A DNA stretch of 39,677 nucleotides, from assembly GCA_015488775.1 (NCBI GenBank), contig WFNF01000071.1:1-39677 (forward strand). The letters are read 5' to 3'. Positions 361-36,027 of the stretch are shown in pieces (the first letter of the stretch is position 1; every line of letters begins with the position of its first letter). A program made the translations under genes and the position numbers. Source of the stretch: Helicobacteraceae bacterium. Its GTDB lineage: Bacteria; Campylobacterota; Campylobacteria; Campylobacterales; Sulfurimonadaceae. The notes beneath the pieces were generated by a model. The model searched no databases, was not told where the DNA came from, and saw only the letters and a list, made by a program, of their open reading frames with translations.

Positions 361-3332
361 GAGTTTCTAAGATAATCAAGAACAGCTTTTATGATGTCGT
401 CATCGTCTTTTGATGCTGATTTAAAACTCTCTTTTGAGCCGTTTATATACTCTACACTTATGTTCATACCATAGTTTGAGATAGTTTTTATATTTTTTTC
501 AAGTCCAAGAAGTTTTATTACTATGAGTTCAAAAAACTGTTTTGTGTAGATATCTAAACTACCAAAACGCTCTATACACTCCTCCTCTATATCGTAAACT
601 TCTACTGCACTTTCACAATGGCTTAATCGTCTGTAAAGCTCTAATCTAAGTCTATCTTCACTTACAACCTCATCACTTATGTAAGCACTGATCATAAGTT
701 TTATGTCAACTTTTGCTTTTTGAGACTCTTTTGTGTTACTTAACTCTTTTATAGAATCCTCTAACATCCTAAGATAAAGGGAGTAGCCTATGTTTTTTAT
801 ATGTCCACTTTGTGAATCTCCTAGTAAGTTTCCACCACCTCTTATCTCTAAGTCATGATGAGCTAAAACAGAACCAGAACCTAGAAATGAGTTGGATTCT
901 AGTGCAACTAAACGTTTTTTAGCCTCATCTGTGATGTTCTCTTTATTTGTAACTAAGAAGTAGGCAAAACCCTCTGTATGACCACGACCAACACGACCAC
1001 GAAGTTGATGAAGATCTGCTATACCAAACCTATCTGCACCATCAACTATCATAGTATTTACATTTGGCATATGTATGCCAGACTCTATAATAGATGTTGC
1101 AAGTAAAACATCATACTCTTTGTTATCAAACCTCATCAACTCTTTTTCTGCTTGTGCAGCTGTAACCTTAGAGTGAAGTTTTAGTATCCTTAAGTTTGGC
1201 AATATATCTAAAAGTTGAGACTCTTTTATATCCATAGCTTTTATAGAGTTAAACACATAAAACACCTGACCACCGCGTCTAAGTTCCCTTAAAATCACCT
1301 CTTTTAAAAGTGAGTCATTATAATCTTTTACAAGTGTTCTAACACCTAAACGCTCACTTGGAGGTGTCATTAAAACAGACATCGTTTTTATAGAGCTTAA
1401 AGCTTGATTTAGTGAGCGTGGGATTGGTGTTGCACTCATAGAAAGAAGATGTGTCGTTTCATAAACCTCTTTTAATTTTTCTTTTTGTTTTACACCAAAT
1501 TTATGTTCTTCATCTATGATTACAAGACCTATGTTTTTATACTCTGCACCAAAAAGAGAATGAGTTCCAATAACTATATCTATACTTCCATCTTTTAAAC
1601 CAGATAAAATACTTTTTTTCTCTTTTGGAGTTATAAACCTATCTAGTTTAGCTATTTTTAAATCTTCAAAACCATCTCTCTCTTTTAAAGATTTAAAATG
1701 TTGAGATGACAAAAGTGTTGTAGGAACAATTAAAGCACCTTGAAAACCACTTTTAACTGTTGAGTAAAGAGCACTCATCGCAACTTCTGTCTTACCAAAA
1801 CCGACATCACCACTTAAAAGTCTATCCATAATAAGCCCAGATGAAAGATTTTTTAATATATCATCAATAGATGTAGCTTGATCATCAGTATAAGTAAATC
1901 CAGCTTTTTCTTGAAACTCTTTCATAAGTTTTTTGTCGTACTTGATTATAGGTGCTTTTATAAGTGCACGGGATGCCGCAGTGTTAACTATGACTGATGC
2001 TATCTCTAGTAAGCGTTTTTTAACCTTCTCTTTTAGTTTAGTAAAGCTACCCTTACCTAGTCTATCTAAAACAGGTAAAGAGCCACTAGATGCTATATAT
2101 CTATCTATATAATCAAGATTTTCAACTGGTAATAAAATTTTATCATCACCAACATACTCAATAACTATAAAATCTTTTACACCACCAAGAATTTTAGCTT
2201 GATCAATCTTTTTAAAAATACCTAAACCATAATCTTCATGAACAACATAATCTCCAGGTTTTAAATCATCTAAAAGTATCTTACTTCTTCTTTTTTTACG
2301 TTTTTTCACACTTTTATTTAGTGAGATAAGCATATGTTTATCTGATATAACATTTACAATCTCACCTGAGTAGATGATTTTGTAAGCTGTAGTATCATAA
2401 ATGCCAACAGCTTTTATTGAAGCATCATTTATAGCAATAATCTCAATATCTTTATTTTTATGTACATCCAAAAGAGTTGTAACACTTGTTGTACTTAAAT
2501 CTTTATAATCATTATTTTCATCAATAATATCTAAAGAGGTGATATTTTCTAGTGCTAGTGCAAATGATGAAAGCTCATACTCATCCTCTATCTGATCAAT
2601 AAAGTTTCTACTCAAAAGTGCTGTCTTAGCATCTAAAAAATTGTAAGAATTATCACCTAAGTACCAAAAGCCCAAAGAGTTTACATCTTTTACAAAAGCA
2701 TCAAAATCTGAGTTTTCAACATCTTTTACTATTTGATCAAACTCATCATCTTTAAATGAGAAAAAAGCAGGTTTAACATCAAAACTATCAAACTCTAAAT
2801 CTTTAGTTCTTTGAGTTTCAACATCAAAAGCTTTTATCTGTTCTATCTCCTCATCAAACAAAGAGATTCTTATAGCATCACTTGCACCATTAACAAATAT
2901 ATCTATAATATCTCCCCTAAAAGAGACCTCTCCTTCAACCTCAACTATATCAACAAAAGAGTAACCCCAAGCTATAAGTTTCTCTTTAAACTCCTGTAGC
3001 TTTATAGTTCCAGCAAACTCTAAGTTTACAATCTCGAGTAAAGACTCTTTTGGAAGTTTATGATACATAGTTTTATATGGGGTGATAACAAGAGGTTTAG
3101 TCTTTGCATTATAGTAAGTATATAAAGCATTTTGAAGAAGTTTAAGCTCATCACCATATGCTCTTAAATCATCCCCTACACTTGCTCTAAAGTCAGGGAA
3201 AACTATGTGTTCTATCTTAAAGTACTTTAAAAGGTCACTAACCTCACTACACTCAACATCATCTTGAAGAACAAGAACTTCAGGCAGTTTTTTATTTAGT
3301 TTTATATATTCAAATATTCTAGCTTGATTCAT
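342..3332 (-). CDS. mfd: Transcription-repair coupling factor Mfd
   Basis: Mfd is a cytoplasmic DNA translocase that removes RNA polymerase stalled at lesions and recruits UvrA. The 996-residue product shows a UvrB-like N-terminal part, an RNA-polymerase-interacting CarD-like domain at about 355–420 (GDYVVHEDYGLGIF), and a superfamily 2 helicase core. The core has Walker A GDVGFGKT at 508–515, DEEH at 607–610, SATPIPR at 633–639 and the RecG/Mfd-type HQLRGRVGRG motif, followed by the TRCF C-terminal domain. It is shorter than E. coli Mfd (about 1,150 residues), as is usual in Campylobacterota. The start is an ATG 38 bases after the upstream kinase gene, with no clear Shine-Dalgarno, which suggests co-transcription. 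Identification is secure. Confidence 0.97.
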   Translation of the reverse strand: MNQARIFEYIKLNKKLPEVLVLQDDVECSEVSDLLKYFKIEHIVFPDFRASVGDDLRAYGDELKLLQNALYTYYNAKTKPLVITPYKTMYHKLPKESLLEIVNLEFAGTIKLQEFKEKLIAWGYSFVDIVEVEGEVSFRGDIIDIFVNGASDAIRISLFDEEIEQIKAFDVETQRTKDLEFDSFDVKPAFFSFKDDEFDQIVKDVENSDFDAFVKDVNSLGFWYLGDNSYNFLDAKTALLSRNFIDQIEDEYELSSFALALENITSLDIIDENNDYKDLSTTSVTTLLDVHKNKDIEIIAINDASIKAVGIYDTTAYKIIYSGEIVNVISDKHMLISLNKSVKKRKKRRSKILLDDLKPGDYVVHEDYGLGIFKKIDQAKILGGVKDFIVIEYVGDDKILLPVENLDYIDRYIASSGSLPVLDRLGKGSFTKLKEKVKKRLLEIASVIVNTAASRALIKAPIIKYDKKLMKEFQEKAGFTYTDDQATSIDDILKNLSSGLIMDRLLSGDVGFGKTEVAMSALYSTVKSGFQGALIVPTTLLSSQHFKSLKERDGFEDLKIAKLDRFITPKEKKSILSGLKDGSIDIVIGTHSLFGAEYKNIGLVIIDEEHKFGVKQKEKLKEVYETTHLLSMSATPIPRSLNQALSSIKTMSVLMTPPSERLGVRTLVKDYNDSLLKEVILRELRRGGQVFYVFNSIKAMDIKESQLLDILPNLRILKLHSKVTAAQAEKELMRFDNKEYDVLLATSIIESGIHMPNVNTMIVDGADRFGIADLHQLRGRVGRGHTEGFAYFLVTNKENITDEAKKRLVALESNSFLGSGSVLAHHDLEIRGGGNLLGDSQSGHIKNIGYSLYLRMLEDSIKELSNTKESQKAKVDIKLMISAYISDEVVSEDRLRLELYRRLSHCESAVEVYDIEEECIERFGSLDIYTKQFFELIVIKLLGLEKNIKTISNYGMNISVEYINGSKESFKSASKDDDDIIKAVLDYLRNSKPKVL

Positions 3333-3370
3333 AATGCCATTGTAGCAAAAAATTATATATATCTATAAAA

Positions 3371-6300
3371 TTATTTACTACTTTGTAAGATATTTAAAAT
3401 ATTGCTAAAATCTCTTAACATACTATCCATCTTTGCTATGTCAAATATCTCTATAGCTTCACCTAAATCTAAACAATACTCTTTTAAAATATCTATTTCA
3501 TACTCATCTGCTATGTTTTTTAAAGCATCATTCATCACTTTAATATCATTAATATTTTTACTCTTTTGTGCCTTAATCAGTAAAGGCATAATGTTTTCTT
3601 CTATTTGAATTAAAATAACTCCTAAATTGAGTTTTGTTTTTTCATTTAAAGTAAACACATTTTCTTTTTTTACACTTTGTTCTATAACTTTGTACTCTAA
3701 AAATTGTTTAAATACTTTTATTAAATCAAATCTAGAAACTGGTTTTCTAAGATAAGCATCAAAGTTTTCACTTTTCACTTTTTCATATTCATCTTGCATA
3801 ACTGAGGCTGTTAACGCAATAATTGGAACTTTACTAAAAGCTTTAATCCTTTTAGAAGCTTCATACCCATCCATGTTGGGCATACGAATATCCATTAAGA
3901 TAAGACTAGGATTTTCTTTTTTATATCTATCTATAGCTTCAAAGCCATCACTTGCACTTAAAACTTCTATATTAGTATCTTTAAAACTCTCAATAATTAA
4001 ATCACAATTATCTTCAATATCATCAACTACTAAAATTTTTGTTTTTAGGAATTCGATATTTTCAACTAAGTCATCAGTATTTACTTGGTTTTCATCTTTA
4101 ATATTTGCAATATCAACATTATAAAGATGTACTATAAACTTAGCTCCATTGTTTGATTCAACACTTATATCCCCACCCATCATTGAGCATAAACGTTTTG
4201 AAATAGCTAAACCTAACCCTGTTCCACCAAACTTACGATTATCTTGACCATCTTGCTGTTCAAACTCCAAAAATATCTTTTTTAATTGATCCTCTTTTAT
4301 ACCTATACCACTATCTTCAACACTTATCTCTAAATCAACTTTAGATAGATGCTCTTTTACCTCTAAAGCTTTAATCTCTAGTTTAATATAACCATTTTGT
4401 GTAAATTTTACAGCATTTCCTATTAAGTTAAAAAGGATTTGTCTTAATCTAGTCTCATCTAGTAAAAGTGTACTTGGAAGATTTTTATCTACATTTACAT
4501 AAAAATCTAAATCTTTATTTTTTACACTTATCATAAAGATAGAGCTTATCTCATTACTTAAATTAACTATATCAGTAGGTTTATTTTCTATTTTTAATTT
4601 TCCAGCTTCAATTTTTGATAAATCCAAAATATCGTTGATAAGTGTAAGTAGTGTATTGCTAGCGTTTTGTATAGTCTTTATATATGCTTTTAAACTTGGC
4701 TTTGTAACTTGTTCATTTAAAAGCTCAGTAAAACCCATAATAGCGTTCATAGGTGTTCTAATCTCATGTGACATATTTGCTAAAAATTCAGATTTTGATC
4801 TATTTGCATTATCTGCAATCTGTTTTGCTTCAAATAAGTTTTTCTCTAAAAGCTTTTGCTCACTTATATCTCTCCATACAACATATATAGCTTCGCCACC
4901 TTGATAATTAATTGTTGTTAAACCAACATCTACCCAAAAATCTTTTCCAAATACATCAGTATGTACCCACTCAAACCTATCACTATCATTTTTTAAACAT
5001 AAATCTGTATGTAATTTAGCTTTTGTAACAGACAGTTCACCATCTGGTTGATACTCGGCAGACCAAACATCAGGAGTTGTACCATATAGTTTTTGTGAAT
5101 TTTCAAGACCTAACATATCTAAGGCTGCCTTATTTGCCATAATAAACTTACCATCTTGTATAATCAAATTTCCATCAGATACTTTTTCAAATAAAACTTT
5201 AAAATTTTCTTTCTCAATATACAAAGATTCTTCTGCAATCTTTTTCTCTTTTATCTCATATGCAAGTTTTCTATTCCAATAAAGAGTGGCAATTATTAAT
5301 GAAAGTAATACAAATGCGATCTCAAATATAAGTGTGTAATCTTGAGAATGTTTTACTTCAACTCTAACCCATCTATTTGTTATATCCACCTTTTCCTCAT
5401 CACTAAGAGAGTCAAAAACTTTATTAACTATATGAAGAAGAGTAGCTTGTGACTTTTGAAATAACATCTTATGATCAAAATCGTACTCAATACTACCAGC
5501 AATATATAAACTATGGGAGTAATACAAACCAACATAATACATAGCGACAGCCATATGACCTAAAAATGCGTCAGCAGTACCATTTTTAACCATATCTAAA
5601 GCTTCAAATATATCTTTTGTTGGGATAACTTTTATATTATATTTTTGAGATATCAAATAATTATAGCTTGTCCAGTATTTTGGAACAGCTATTTTTTTAC
5701 CCTCCATCTCTTGTATTTTACTTATGAAAGAGTGAGAATCTTTAGTAACTAAAACAAAAGGAAAATCAGCATAACTCTTTGATGCTAAACCTAAAGATAT
5801 CTCCTTATCACTACTACCAATACCAGGTATCATATCTATTTGTTTATTTTTAAACTTATCTAAAACATCTGACCAAGATGATGCTTGTACAAATTTAAAT
5901 TTTATGCCTGTTTTTTTTGTAATTAAGTTTAAATACTCGCTAATAAGTCCTGTCATTTTGTTATTTTCAATAATAGCTAAAGGCTTCCAATTAACCTCAC
6001 TATATGTCACAATAGGATGTTTTTTAATCCAAAGTTTTTCTTCCCAATTTAAAAGCTTAGACTTTATATCTAAGTTTGAGCTATCTACATAAACCCATTT
6101 ATCATATATTTTTCTTTTTGTTTTTTTATCTATTTTATCAAGAGCCTTATTTACAATAGAGAGCAATATATCATTACCAAGATAAGTTGCCATATGTAAC
6201 TTGACAAGTCCATTTTTTCTATACGATTTAAAAGGTATTATACTTTTAATCCCATTTTCCTCAAGCTTATATGACAATGCTATTTGTGTATCAAACAATA

Positions 6301-34158: not shown

Positions 34159-34180
34159 TATATTAGAATATTCTAATATA
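34159..34180. promoter_or_regulatory. 22-bp perfect palindrome, probable ArsR-family operator
   Basis: The half-site is TATATTAGAAT followed by its exact inverse, with no spacer, ending 18 bases before the regulator's start codon. ArsR/SmtB repressors bind AT-rich palindromes of this type in their own promoters, so autoregulation of the operon is likely. Confidence 0.7.
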
Positions 34181-34198
34181 CTTATAAAAGGTTAAACA

Positions 34199-34546
34199 AT
34201 GGATAGTTTAAACTCATGTTGTAGGGTTGAGATAGACAATAGTTTAATATCTAACGCTCAAAATCTTCTTAAAAATGAGGAGATACTTTTAGATGAAAAA
34301 TCTAAAATATTTCTACTTCTTGGAAATAGTGTTAGATTAAAGATAGTCAAACTTTTTTTGCACTTTGAAAAGATGTGTGTTTGTGATCTTAGTGATGTTT
34401 TAAAAATGAAGCAATCCCCTATTTCTCAACATCTTCGTAAATTAAAAGATGGTGCTATTTTAGATAGTAAAAGAGATGGAATGACAGTTTTTTACTCACT
34501 TAGAGGTGAGATGAAAGAGTCTATAAGTAAGATTATTGAAGGATAA
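34199..34546 (+). CDS. ArsR/SmtB-family metal-responsive repressor
   Basis: A 115-residue winged-helix regulator. The recognition helix region is MKQSPISQHLRKLKDGAIL (70–88). Metal-ligand candidates are the Cys pair at 7–8 and Cys60/Cys62 in MCVCDLSDVL, which corresponds to the CVC box of thiolate-metal-sensing ArsR/CadC proteins. Soft metals such as Hg(II), Cd(II), As(III) or Cu(I) are plausible inducers, and the downstream MerT–MerP fusion favours mercury. AAAGG precedes the ATG. It is the first gene of a three-gene operon controlled by the 22-bp palindrome. Confidence 0.9.
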   Translation: MDSLNSCCRVEIDNSLISNAQNLLKNEEILLDEKSKIFLLLGNSVRLKIVKLFLHFEKMCVCDLSDVLKMKQSPISQHLRKLKDGAILDSKRDGMTVFYSLRGEMKESISKIIEG

Positions 34547-34549
34547 CTC

Positions 34550-35287
34550 ATGATAGATAAAAAAATATTGACAAGTTTAGTAAGTGCTTTTGGTGCGTCT
34601 TTATGTTGTATCACACCTGTTGTAGCAGTTTTAGCTGGTTCAACTGGTATGGCATCAACTTTCTCTTGGATAGAACCAGCAAGAGATTATTTGGTAGTTT
34701 TAACTATATTGATTTTGATTTATGCTTGGTGGGATAAACTAAAACCAAAAAAAGATGATATTGAGTGTGCTTGTGATCCAGATGAAAATGGTAAAATCTC
34801 TTTTTGGCATACTAAAACATTTTTAGCCATAGTTACAATTTTTTCTGCTTTAATGTTAAGTTTTCCATATTGGGGAGATTCTCTTATAAAAAGTGACAAA
34901 CCTAAAGTTGTTTATGTAGATAAATCTCAATTAAAAAAGATAAGCATAAATATTGAGGGTATGACTTGTAAGGCTTGTGAAGCAACAGTTGAAAAAGTAG
35001 CTAATGATGTAGATGGTGTAACTTACATCAAAGCTTCAGTAGATAATAAAAATGCAGTTGTTGAGTTTGATCAAAGTAAAACAGATTCTAAAAGTATTAT
35101 GAAAGCTATTGGAACTACTGGTTATAAACCTGTAAGCTATGTTGATAAAGATGGAAGTCATAAGGTTGAGGGTATAAAACTTGATAAACATAAAGATATG
35201 AAAAAGCAAACTAGCTCAAAATGTGGTGGTGGCAAGTGTGGTGCAGGTAGATGTGGCGCTGGAAAATGTGGAACTAAAAAGGAGTAA
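34550..35287 (+). CDS. MerT–MerP-type metal transport fusion protein with Cys-Gly-rich tail
   Basis: A 245-residue inner-membrane protein. Residues 1–110 are MerT-like: three membrane helices (about 9–29, 45–61, 87–106), the vicinal Cys19–Cys20 in LCCITP within helix 1, and Cys73/Cys75 in the loop. Residues 130–198 are a MerP/HMA domain with GMTCKAC (Cys140, Cys143). The tail at 222–241 has Cys225, 230, 235 and 240, exactly five residues apart, in a (K/R)CG-x-G repeat. MerT–MerP fusions import Hg(II) for cytoplasmic handling, usually by MerA, which is absent here. The tail resembles KCG motifs of copper-binding bufferin/HvfA peptides, though no MNIO modifying enzyme is in view. The ATG follows the regulator's stop by three bases and has AAGGAT. 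Confidence 0.85.
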   Translation: MIDKKILTSLVSAFGASLCCITPVVAVLAGSTGMASTFSWIEPARDYLVVLTILILIYAWWDKLKPKKDDIECACDPDENGKISFWHTKTFLAIVTIFSALMLSFPYWGDSLIKSDKPKVVYVDKSQLKKISINIEGMTCKACEATVEKVANDVDGVTYIKASVDNKNAVVEFDQSKTDSKSIMKAIGTTGYKPVSYVDKDGSHKVEGIKLDKHKDMKKQTSSKCGGGKCGAGRCGAGKCGTKKE

Positions 35288-35290
35288 GAT

Positions 35291-35785
35291 ATGCAGTTTT
35301 TTACAAAAAAAGAGGAGCAAACAAGCTCTTGTGATACAAATAGTGGATGTTGTACACCAGCACCTAAAGGTAAAATGGAGTGTCCACAGTGTAAGCAAAA
35401 AGCAAAAGCTGTTTTAGCTAAAACTCTTGATTCGCTTCTTAAAGATGAAACAAAGTCTTCTCTTGAGAGTTTTGATGGTTTTTACTATTGTAAAACACCA
35501 ACCTGCTCTACTGTTTACTTTAGAGATAAAACTATACTTACTCAAGATGATTTAAGTGTAGTTGTTGGACTAAAAGATAAGGCATCACCAGCTACTCTTT
35601 GTTACTGTTTTGATTACTCTAAAGAGAAGATTTATAAAGATATAAAAGAGAAAGGTACAACTACTGTTCTTGAAGATATAAAAACAAAAATGAAAACTCA
35701 AGGTTGTTCATGTGAAACTCTAAATCCAAGTGGTGGATGTTGCCTTGGTGATGTAGCTAAGGCTATAAAAGAGATATCAGCCTAA
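35291..35785 (+). CDS. CopZ-like Fe-S/zinc metallochaperone
   Basis: A cysteine-rich 164-residue cytoplasmic protein resembling the N-terminal domain of Archaeoglobus CopZ, which carries one zinc and a [2Fe-2S] cluster. A zinc-ribbon-like half has Cys31, Cys34 (CPQC), Cys67 and Cys72. A second half, similar to BFD-type cluster domains, has Cys104 and Cys106 (LCYCF) and Cys139, 141, 150 and 151 (GCSC...GGCC). It lacks the HMA domain of CopZ itself, but the upstream protein supplies one. It would accept or reduce imported metal (Hg or Cu); this is inference. A strong AAGGAG at the end of the upstream gene couples the two. The stop codon forms the loop of a terminator hairpin. Confidence 0.8.
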   Translation: MQFFTKKEEQTSSCDTNSGCCTPAPKGKMECPQCKQKAKAVLAKTLDSLLKDETKSSLESFDGFYYCKTPTCSTVYFRDKTILTQDDLSVVVGLKDKASPATLCYCFDYSKEKIYKDIKEKGTTTVLEDIKTKMKTQGCSCETLNPSGGCCLGDVAKAIKEISA

Positions 35786-35793
35786 GGCTGATA
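35775..35793. terminator. Convergent terminator after the metal operon
   Basis: A perfect 8-bp stem TATCAGCC / GGCTGATA closes on a three-base loop that is the TAA stop codon of the metallochaperone gene. T-rich DNA follows on both strands, and the histone-like gene ends just beyond it. Confidence 0.65.
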
Positions 35794-35796
35794 AAA

Positions 35797-36027
35797 CTAC
35801 TTTTTAACTGTTTTTTTTGTTACAGGCTTAGCAGATTTTTTAATGATTTTTTTAGCTAACTTTTTAGCTGACTTAGGTTTAGTTAGTTTTTTCTTTGTTA
35901 ATGTTTTAACAATTTTTTTAACTAACTTCTTTTTTGTTTTCTTAGCTACAGTTTTTTTAGAAACTGCTTTTTTAACACTCTTTTTAGCAACTTTTTTTAC
36001 TGCTTTTTTCTTTAATACTTTAGCCAT
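35797..36027 (-). CDS. Lysine-rich histone H1-like DNA-binding protein
   Basis: A 76-residue protein with 36 lysines, no acidic and no aromatic residues, built from repeats of the form (A/T/S)VxKK and KKxxKK with Ala, Val and Thr. This composition is that of bacterial histone H1-like proteins (the HctB or AlgP-tail type) that bind and compact DNA. A strong AAAAGGAGT before the ATG supports real expression. It would act on the nucleoid, but no specific role can be read. The low-complexity coding DNA gives a hydrophobic reading on the opposite strand, which is an artefact. Confidence 0.82.
   Translation of the reverse strand: MAKVLKKKAVKKVAKKSVKKAVSKKTVAKKTKKKLVKKIVKTLTKKKLTKPKSAKKLAKKIIKKSAKPVTKKTVKK

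Follow-up and report, generated by a model that had tools for sequence, protein, structure and literature searches.

Mercury resistance operons that combine an ArsR-family regulator with MerT/MerP-type transport have been described from Bacteroidetes, Actinobacteria and archaea (PMC3466566). Among Epsilonproteobacteria, the mercuric reductase MerA was not found in that survey and was recorded in one genome in PMC8261052. The latter paper also raises the question of the fate of mercury in organisms bearing MerB without MerA, a case parallel to that of importers lacking MerA, and discusses ferredoxin-linked, MerA-independent reduction of Hg(II). Cells that import Hg(II) but lack MerA are expected to become more sensitive to it, as indicated by the title of a 1979 hypersensitivity study cited in PMC4570782. 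Mercury transport genes with no adjoining merA have been reported for the merT2-merP2 cluster of plasmid pMR68 (PMC3737084).

The locus analysed here lies in a 39,677-nucleotide stretch of DNA, henceforth referred to as the window, which is contig 71 of a 2.7 Mb genome assembled in 170 contigs and rated 95.4% complete. It contains a three-gene unit in the order arsR, merTP and copZ-N, all on the + strand, separated by 3-nt gaps and with all reading frames intact. A preliminary description of this DNA had recognised three tightly coupled genes behind a perfect palindrome, which was borne out. The features of the locus are as follows.

34159..34180, no strand assigned: presumed ArsR operator, a perfect 22-bp palindrome, TATATTAGAATATTCTAATATA, with 11-nt arms and zero spacer
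34199..34546, + strand: arsR, an ArsR/SmtB repressor of 115 aa (HTH_5 and HTH_metalloreg family matches)
34550..35287, + strand: merTP, MerT fused to a MerP-like HMA domain, 245 aa (MerT and HMA family matches)
34946..35128, + strand: MerP-like HMA domain of MerTP, residues 133-193, with GMTCKAC (family match)
35213..35284, + strand: C-terminal cysteine tail of MerTP, SKCGGGKCGAGRCGAGKCG (alignment)
35291..35785, + strand: copZ-N, a 164-aa protein of the CopZ N-terminal [2Fe-2S]/Zn family (zf_CopZ and weak Fer2_BFD matches; NF047645)
35375..35554, + strand: zf_CopZ domain of copZ-N with C31, C34, C67 and C72 (family match, conserved cysteines)
35597..35761, + strand: BFD-like [2Fe-2S] part of copZ-N with C104, C106, C139, C141, C150 and C151 (weak Pfam match below cut-off; cysteines conserved)
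35775..35793, no strand assigned: short inverted repeat across the end of copZ, a possible terminator (weak; matches the consensus only on the minus strand)

Family scans agreed with the gene identities first proposed, namely a thiol-metal ArsR sensor, a MerT/HMA fusion and a CopZ-like Fe-S/Zn protein. ArsR contains the HTH_5 domain, the N-terminal cysteine and the CxC motif of an ArsR/SmtB repressor with a CadC-like site; its conserved C7 and C60xC62 correspond to the CadC-like sensor cysteines, and the protein resembles CadC-type proteins. MerTP belongs to the NCBIfam family MerTP_fusion (NF033556), scoring 239.5 bits against a curated cut-off of 180 and retaining the CC, CxC and GMTCxxC cysteines. 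The MerT part has a CC pair at positions 19-20, a C73xC75 loop and three predicted membrane helices; the predicted helices and HMA fold come from an AlphaFold model of low confidence (pLDDT 57.5, shallow alignment). The cysteine tail was present in the Campylobacterota proteins aligned and missing from the Bacteroidota ones. Assignment of this tail as a bufferin/HvfA-like MNIO substrate was rejected, as PF05114 was found in only 3 of 11 MerTP-bearing genomes and the MNIO of the same genome has a separate small peptide gene. An HvfABC-like unit was observed on another contig of this genome (C22 (L144), 2217-3946, minus strand), in which an MNIO enzyme (PF05114) is accompanied by a third gene and by a small, lipoprotein-like peptide rich in cysteine; the unit has KCG motifs resembling those of the MerTP tail.

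CopZ-N was assigned to CopZ_Nterm_CC (NF047645) with 117 bits at a cut-off of 100 and conserved cluster and zinc cysteines. The protein also aligned to the solved Archaeoglobus CopZ domain (PDB 2HU9; E=1.5e-15) with its cysteines aligned, and no family match to an HMA domain was obtained within its 164 residues. Its AlphaFold model reached a pLDDT of 40 on a shallow alignment. A single zf_CopZ match was present in the genome. The CopZ tree built on the question of whether CopZ proteins of mer loci form one clade was poorly resolved, with long branches, one starred branch and a p-AU of 0.04.

The palindrome ends 18 bases before the arsR start, and 0.04 matches with three or fewer mismatches would be expected by chance in the window. 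Each of the nine Campylobacterota relatives having arsR has a closely similar operator upstream of that gene. Within this genome, the 18-mer operator consensus is matched exactly by the operon's own site alone, and imperfect matches to the palindrome at other genomic positions did not exceed a reversed-pattern control. A one-mismatch palindrome on contig C147 was discarded as a second operator, since it sits within a coding frame. A promoter-consensus search upstream of arsR returned no match. Adjoining the operon end on the minus strand (35797-36027) is a gene for a 76-aa lysine/alanine-rich, histone H1-like protein with no Pfam match.

MerA was found neither in the operon nor, above the family cut-off of 454 bits, in the 95.4%-complete genome, which upholds the earlier statement that it is absent. 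The best match to the MerA profile was partial (113.6 bits) and fell in an oxidase-like ORF adjoining respiratory-complex genes. As a mer operon, the locus thus has the MerT/MerP-type importer and lacks the mercuric reductase. A merA gene elsewhere under the same palindrome, which had been named as grounds for reading the locus as an ordinary split operon, was not found: there was neither a second exact operator match nor a MerA above cut-off. The absence of a P-type ATPase, also stated in the preliminary description, is true of the operon only, as one heavy-metal P-type ATPase above cut-off is encoded on another contig (C115). No P1B-type ATPase lies beside the operon, which lacks the composition of a CopA-CopZ copper export operon. 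A further contig of this genome (C83 (L145), 1-2842) bears a divergent arsR and a two-gene unit encoding a 330-aa MerT-rhodanese fusion and a protein of 437 aa that contains two methyltransferase domains, and a similar MerT-rhodanese/methyltransferase pair occurs in Arcobacter NORP14 (L093).

Ten close Campylobacterota loci (L082-L091) were obtained by scanning a species-genome collection, and two further genomes were added. The arsR gene is present in nine of the ten loci and has been lost from L084. In L083, L084, L087 and L089, merTP is followed by a 546-549-aa protein identified as MerA (511-535 bits; cut-off 454), with an N-terminal HMA domain, the motif GGTCVNVGC[VI]PSK and a C-terminal CC. 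A copZ gene lies behind merA in L083, L087 and L089, its frame being truncated in L089. In both added genomes the order arsR-merTP-merA was assigned by homology, and one operon is cut by a contig end. One of the two genomes consists of a single contig, and there copZ is found farther downstream, behind dehydrogenase-like and transposase-like genes. In total, merA was located in an arsR-merTP-type operon at six Campylobacterota loci. Since these relatives carry MerA within the same operon, the window locus is a mer operon minus MerA.

Direct contact of merTP and copZ, without merA, was observed in four genomes (the window's, L085, L088 and L090), none of which contains a MerA above cut-off; of the latter three, two have completeness ratings of 94% and 99%. 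The L082 and L091 loci end after merTP, and MerA above cut-off is likewise absent from those genomes. The L086 genome displays a split arrangement, in which a lone MerA without the N-terminal HMA domain lies on another contig (L102:1477-2892) beside a dehydrogenase-like gene and without an ArsR operator. The ArsR-MerTP-CopZ order, a search for which had been suggested as a check on the locus, occurs in the four genomes with merTP abutting copZ. L083 and L085 share 84-90% identity around the junction, where merA is the sole difference. At least three changes of MerA state were counted on the MerTP tree among eight scorable operons, indicating that merA was gained or lost repeatedly. Because CopZ coexists with MerA in these relatives, it is not simply a replacement for MerA; CopZ is a normal mer partner and no unique MerA substitute. 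Elsewhere in Campylobacterota, CopZ-N also adjoins P-type ATPase or RND-type genes.

Relatives of CopZ-N were additionally read at 19 plasmid loci, and outside Campylobacterota the absence of MerA refers to the stretches read rather than to whole genomes. A MerR-family gene lies upstream of copZ on the same strand at 13 of the 19 loci, directly before copZ at nine of these and with importer genes between at four. Mercury-type MerR occurs immediately 5' of copZ in Bacillota and Stenotrophomonas, and four of the MerR proteins tested scored above the mercury MerR cut-off. The order MerR-MerF-CopZ was found in two cyanobacteria, where the stretch read contains no MerA, and MerR-MerT-MerP-CopZ in two Methylomonas plasmids, for one of which MerT and MerP were read from unannotated ORFs. 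Two Deinococcus plasmids contain MerR-CopZ-MerB, and no merA is annotated in the parts of them that were read. In the planctomycete plasmid CP036351.1 (L095:5992-7227), CopZ, MerT and HMA are joined in one 411-aa polypeptide; the record QDV81057.1, annotated as merA, is misnamed and is this CopZ-MerT-HMA protein. Two of the 19 plasmid loci have ArsR-P-type ATPase-CopZ instead of a mer-type layout. Taken with the P-type ATPase and RND neighbours, the MerR neighbours indicate that CopZ-N is a soft-metal protein whose association with mercury-type regulators is strong but not exclusive. On a Halorussus vallis plasmid (L198:2498-4323), an archaeal CopZ-N gene adjoins a gene annotated as dihydrolipoyl dehydrogenase; the two may form a CopZ-flavoprotein pair and lie near merA and merB. 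In Bacteroidota (plasmids and one Flavobacteriaceae contig), merTP is followed by a GDCCVxC (seleno)protein at nine of nine loci (L092, L096, L097, L098 and L183-L187), usually behind arsR and without a MerA in the sequence read around them, which makes this a second arrangement of MerTP lacking MerA; the third gene of L187 has no family name in its record and aligns with the other GDCCVxC genes.

The window operon could be the relic of a normal mer operon that lost merA, in which the remaining genes serve no function independent of MerA and are decaying. The exact merA difference between L083 and L085 and the repeated switching of MerA state on the MerTP tree favour this explanation, as does damage to MerTP at three loci: an in-frame stop in L088, a frameshift in L091, and a GMTCAAS site with a short deletion in L090. 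L088 and L090 are visibly without MerA and L091 is truncated, but in metagenome or single-cell assemblies such lesions may be errors. The TGA in L088 falls at a leucine rather than a cysteine position, and its reading as selenocysteine was rejected. Against decay, the window genes are intact with every conserved cysteine kept, merTP and copZ have stayed together in four genomes, and importer-CopZ sets recur in other phyla. The dN/dS between L083 (MerA-bearing) and L085 (MerA-lacking) is also low, at ~0.10 for MerTP and ~0.09 for CopZ, values that span the whole divergence of the pair and cannot be assigned to the time since merA loss. A decaying relic is considered rather unlikely.

A merA located on a plasmid missed by the assembly, or in the portion of the genome that the assembly lacks, would make this a split mer system, for which the lone HMA-less MerA of the L086 genome, without operator, is a precedent and the 170-contig, incomplete assembly leaves room. 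MerA above cut-off is nevertheless lacking from all four genomes in which merTP abuts copZ, including the two rated nearly complete, and a split system appears very doubtful. Acquisition or handling of copper or another soft metal, with MerTP moving Cu and CopZ-N acting as a copper chaperone, would account for the naming of CopZ-N after copper proteins, for a GMTCxxC domain that binds Cu(I) too and for the P-type ATPase and RND neighbours of CopZ-N elsewhere. It fits poorly with MerA in the same operon of relatives, the mercury-type MerR directly 5' of copZ, the CadC-like cysteines of ArsR and the lack of an adjacent copper ATPase, and is regarded as improbable.

The explanation preferred here, at slightly better than even odds, is that the locus is an ArsR-controlled mer-type operon without merA, in which MerTP imports a thiophilic metal and CopZ-N is the cytosolic acceptor. 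ArsR would occupy the palindrome until its CadC-like cysteine site is filled by a thiophilic metal, most probably Hg(II), whereupon the metal-bound repressor would leave the operator. MerTP would then capture the metal at the GMTCxxC domain and pass it to the CC pair of TM1, the CxC loop and the cytoplasm, the inward direction being the presumed one. CopZ-N would hold the metal or pass it on by means of its cysteine-rich [2Fe-2S]/Zn fold. Hand-off of imported metal to CopZ, as put forward in the preliminary description, is the best-supported mechanism from sequence comparison, in which we infer the transfer, the metal's identity and its final fate. It gains comparative support from the planctomycete CopZ-MerT-HMA fusion and from independent importer-CopZ operons without neighbouring MerA. 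The redox conversion also envisaged is conjectural too. Reduction of Hg(II) by the [2Fe-2S] centre of CopZ-N is possible, given the ferredoxin-linked reaction discussed in PMC8261052. Where MerA is absent, CopZ is the one remaining operon product with the potential to act as a cytosolic sink. Against the acceptor reading, the expected sensitisation by import without MerA counts, CopZ stands beside MerA in relatives so that it is not necessarily a separate sink, and CopZ-N is also found beside copper-type ATPases and RND efflux genes.

A cell that imports mercury and has no MerA should be poisoned; importer operons kept without MerA thus require an alternative sink, for which CopZ-N is a concrete candidate given the Deinococcus MerR-CopZ-MerB plasmids. 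The recurring sets of importer and Fe-S protein in other phyla suggest MerA-independent mercury handling. A broader proposal can be advanced only tentatively: importer plus stand-alone CopZ-N may be a MerA-independent mercury pathway assembled several times (Campylobacterota, Methylomonas, cyanobacteria and a planctomycete), in which Hg(II) reaches CopZ-N and is either stored there or reduced by the [2Fe-2S] centre. If true, mercury handling in marine Campylobacterota, for which records of MerA are scarce, would gain a further route.

Each gene family is already known and named. No paper on CopZ-N in mercury regulons was found in the literature searched, as judged by titles and term counts. 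Likewise, no description of the ArsR-MerTP-CopZ combination, of its kinship with MerA-bearing Campylobacterota operons or of the importer-CopZ pairing was found in a partial coverage consisting mostly of titles, and an earlier description is possible. The CopZ of Archaeoglobus fulgidus carries an HMA domain of its own. CopZ-N shares with that protein (PDB 2HU9) the N-terminal [2Fe-2S]/Zn domain family and differs in being the N-terminal domain alone, with the HMA domain placed in MerTP. With the ArsR-type mer operons (PMC3466566) the window operon has in common the regulator family, the MerT/MerP-type transport and, in its relatives, MerA; it differs in its lack of MerA, in CopZ-N as third gene and in an importer that fuses MerT to HMA and bears a cysteine tail. 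The pMR68 cluster differs in that merA is located elsewhere on the same plasmid, and CopZ is not mentioned in the available part of that report (PMC3737084). The Methylomonas sets likewise pair a mercury importer with CopZ-N and have no MerA in the ~49 kb read around them, but use a MerR regulator and separate MerT and MerP, and their CopZ is 27-29% identical. The Bacteroidota operons share the ArsR-MerTP order with a small protein rich in cysteine encoded next, and the sequence read around them contains no MerA; in contrast to the window operon, their third gene is GDCCVxC (NF041374) rather than CopZ-N, and their MerTP is 39-44% identical and has no cysteine tail.
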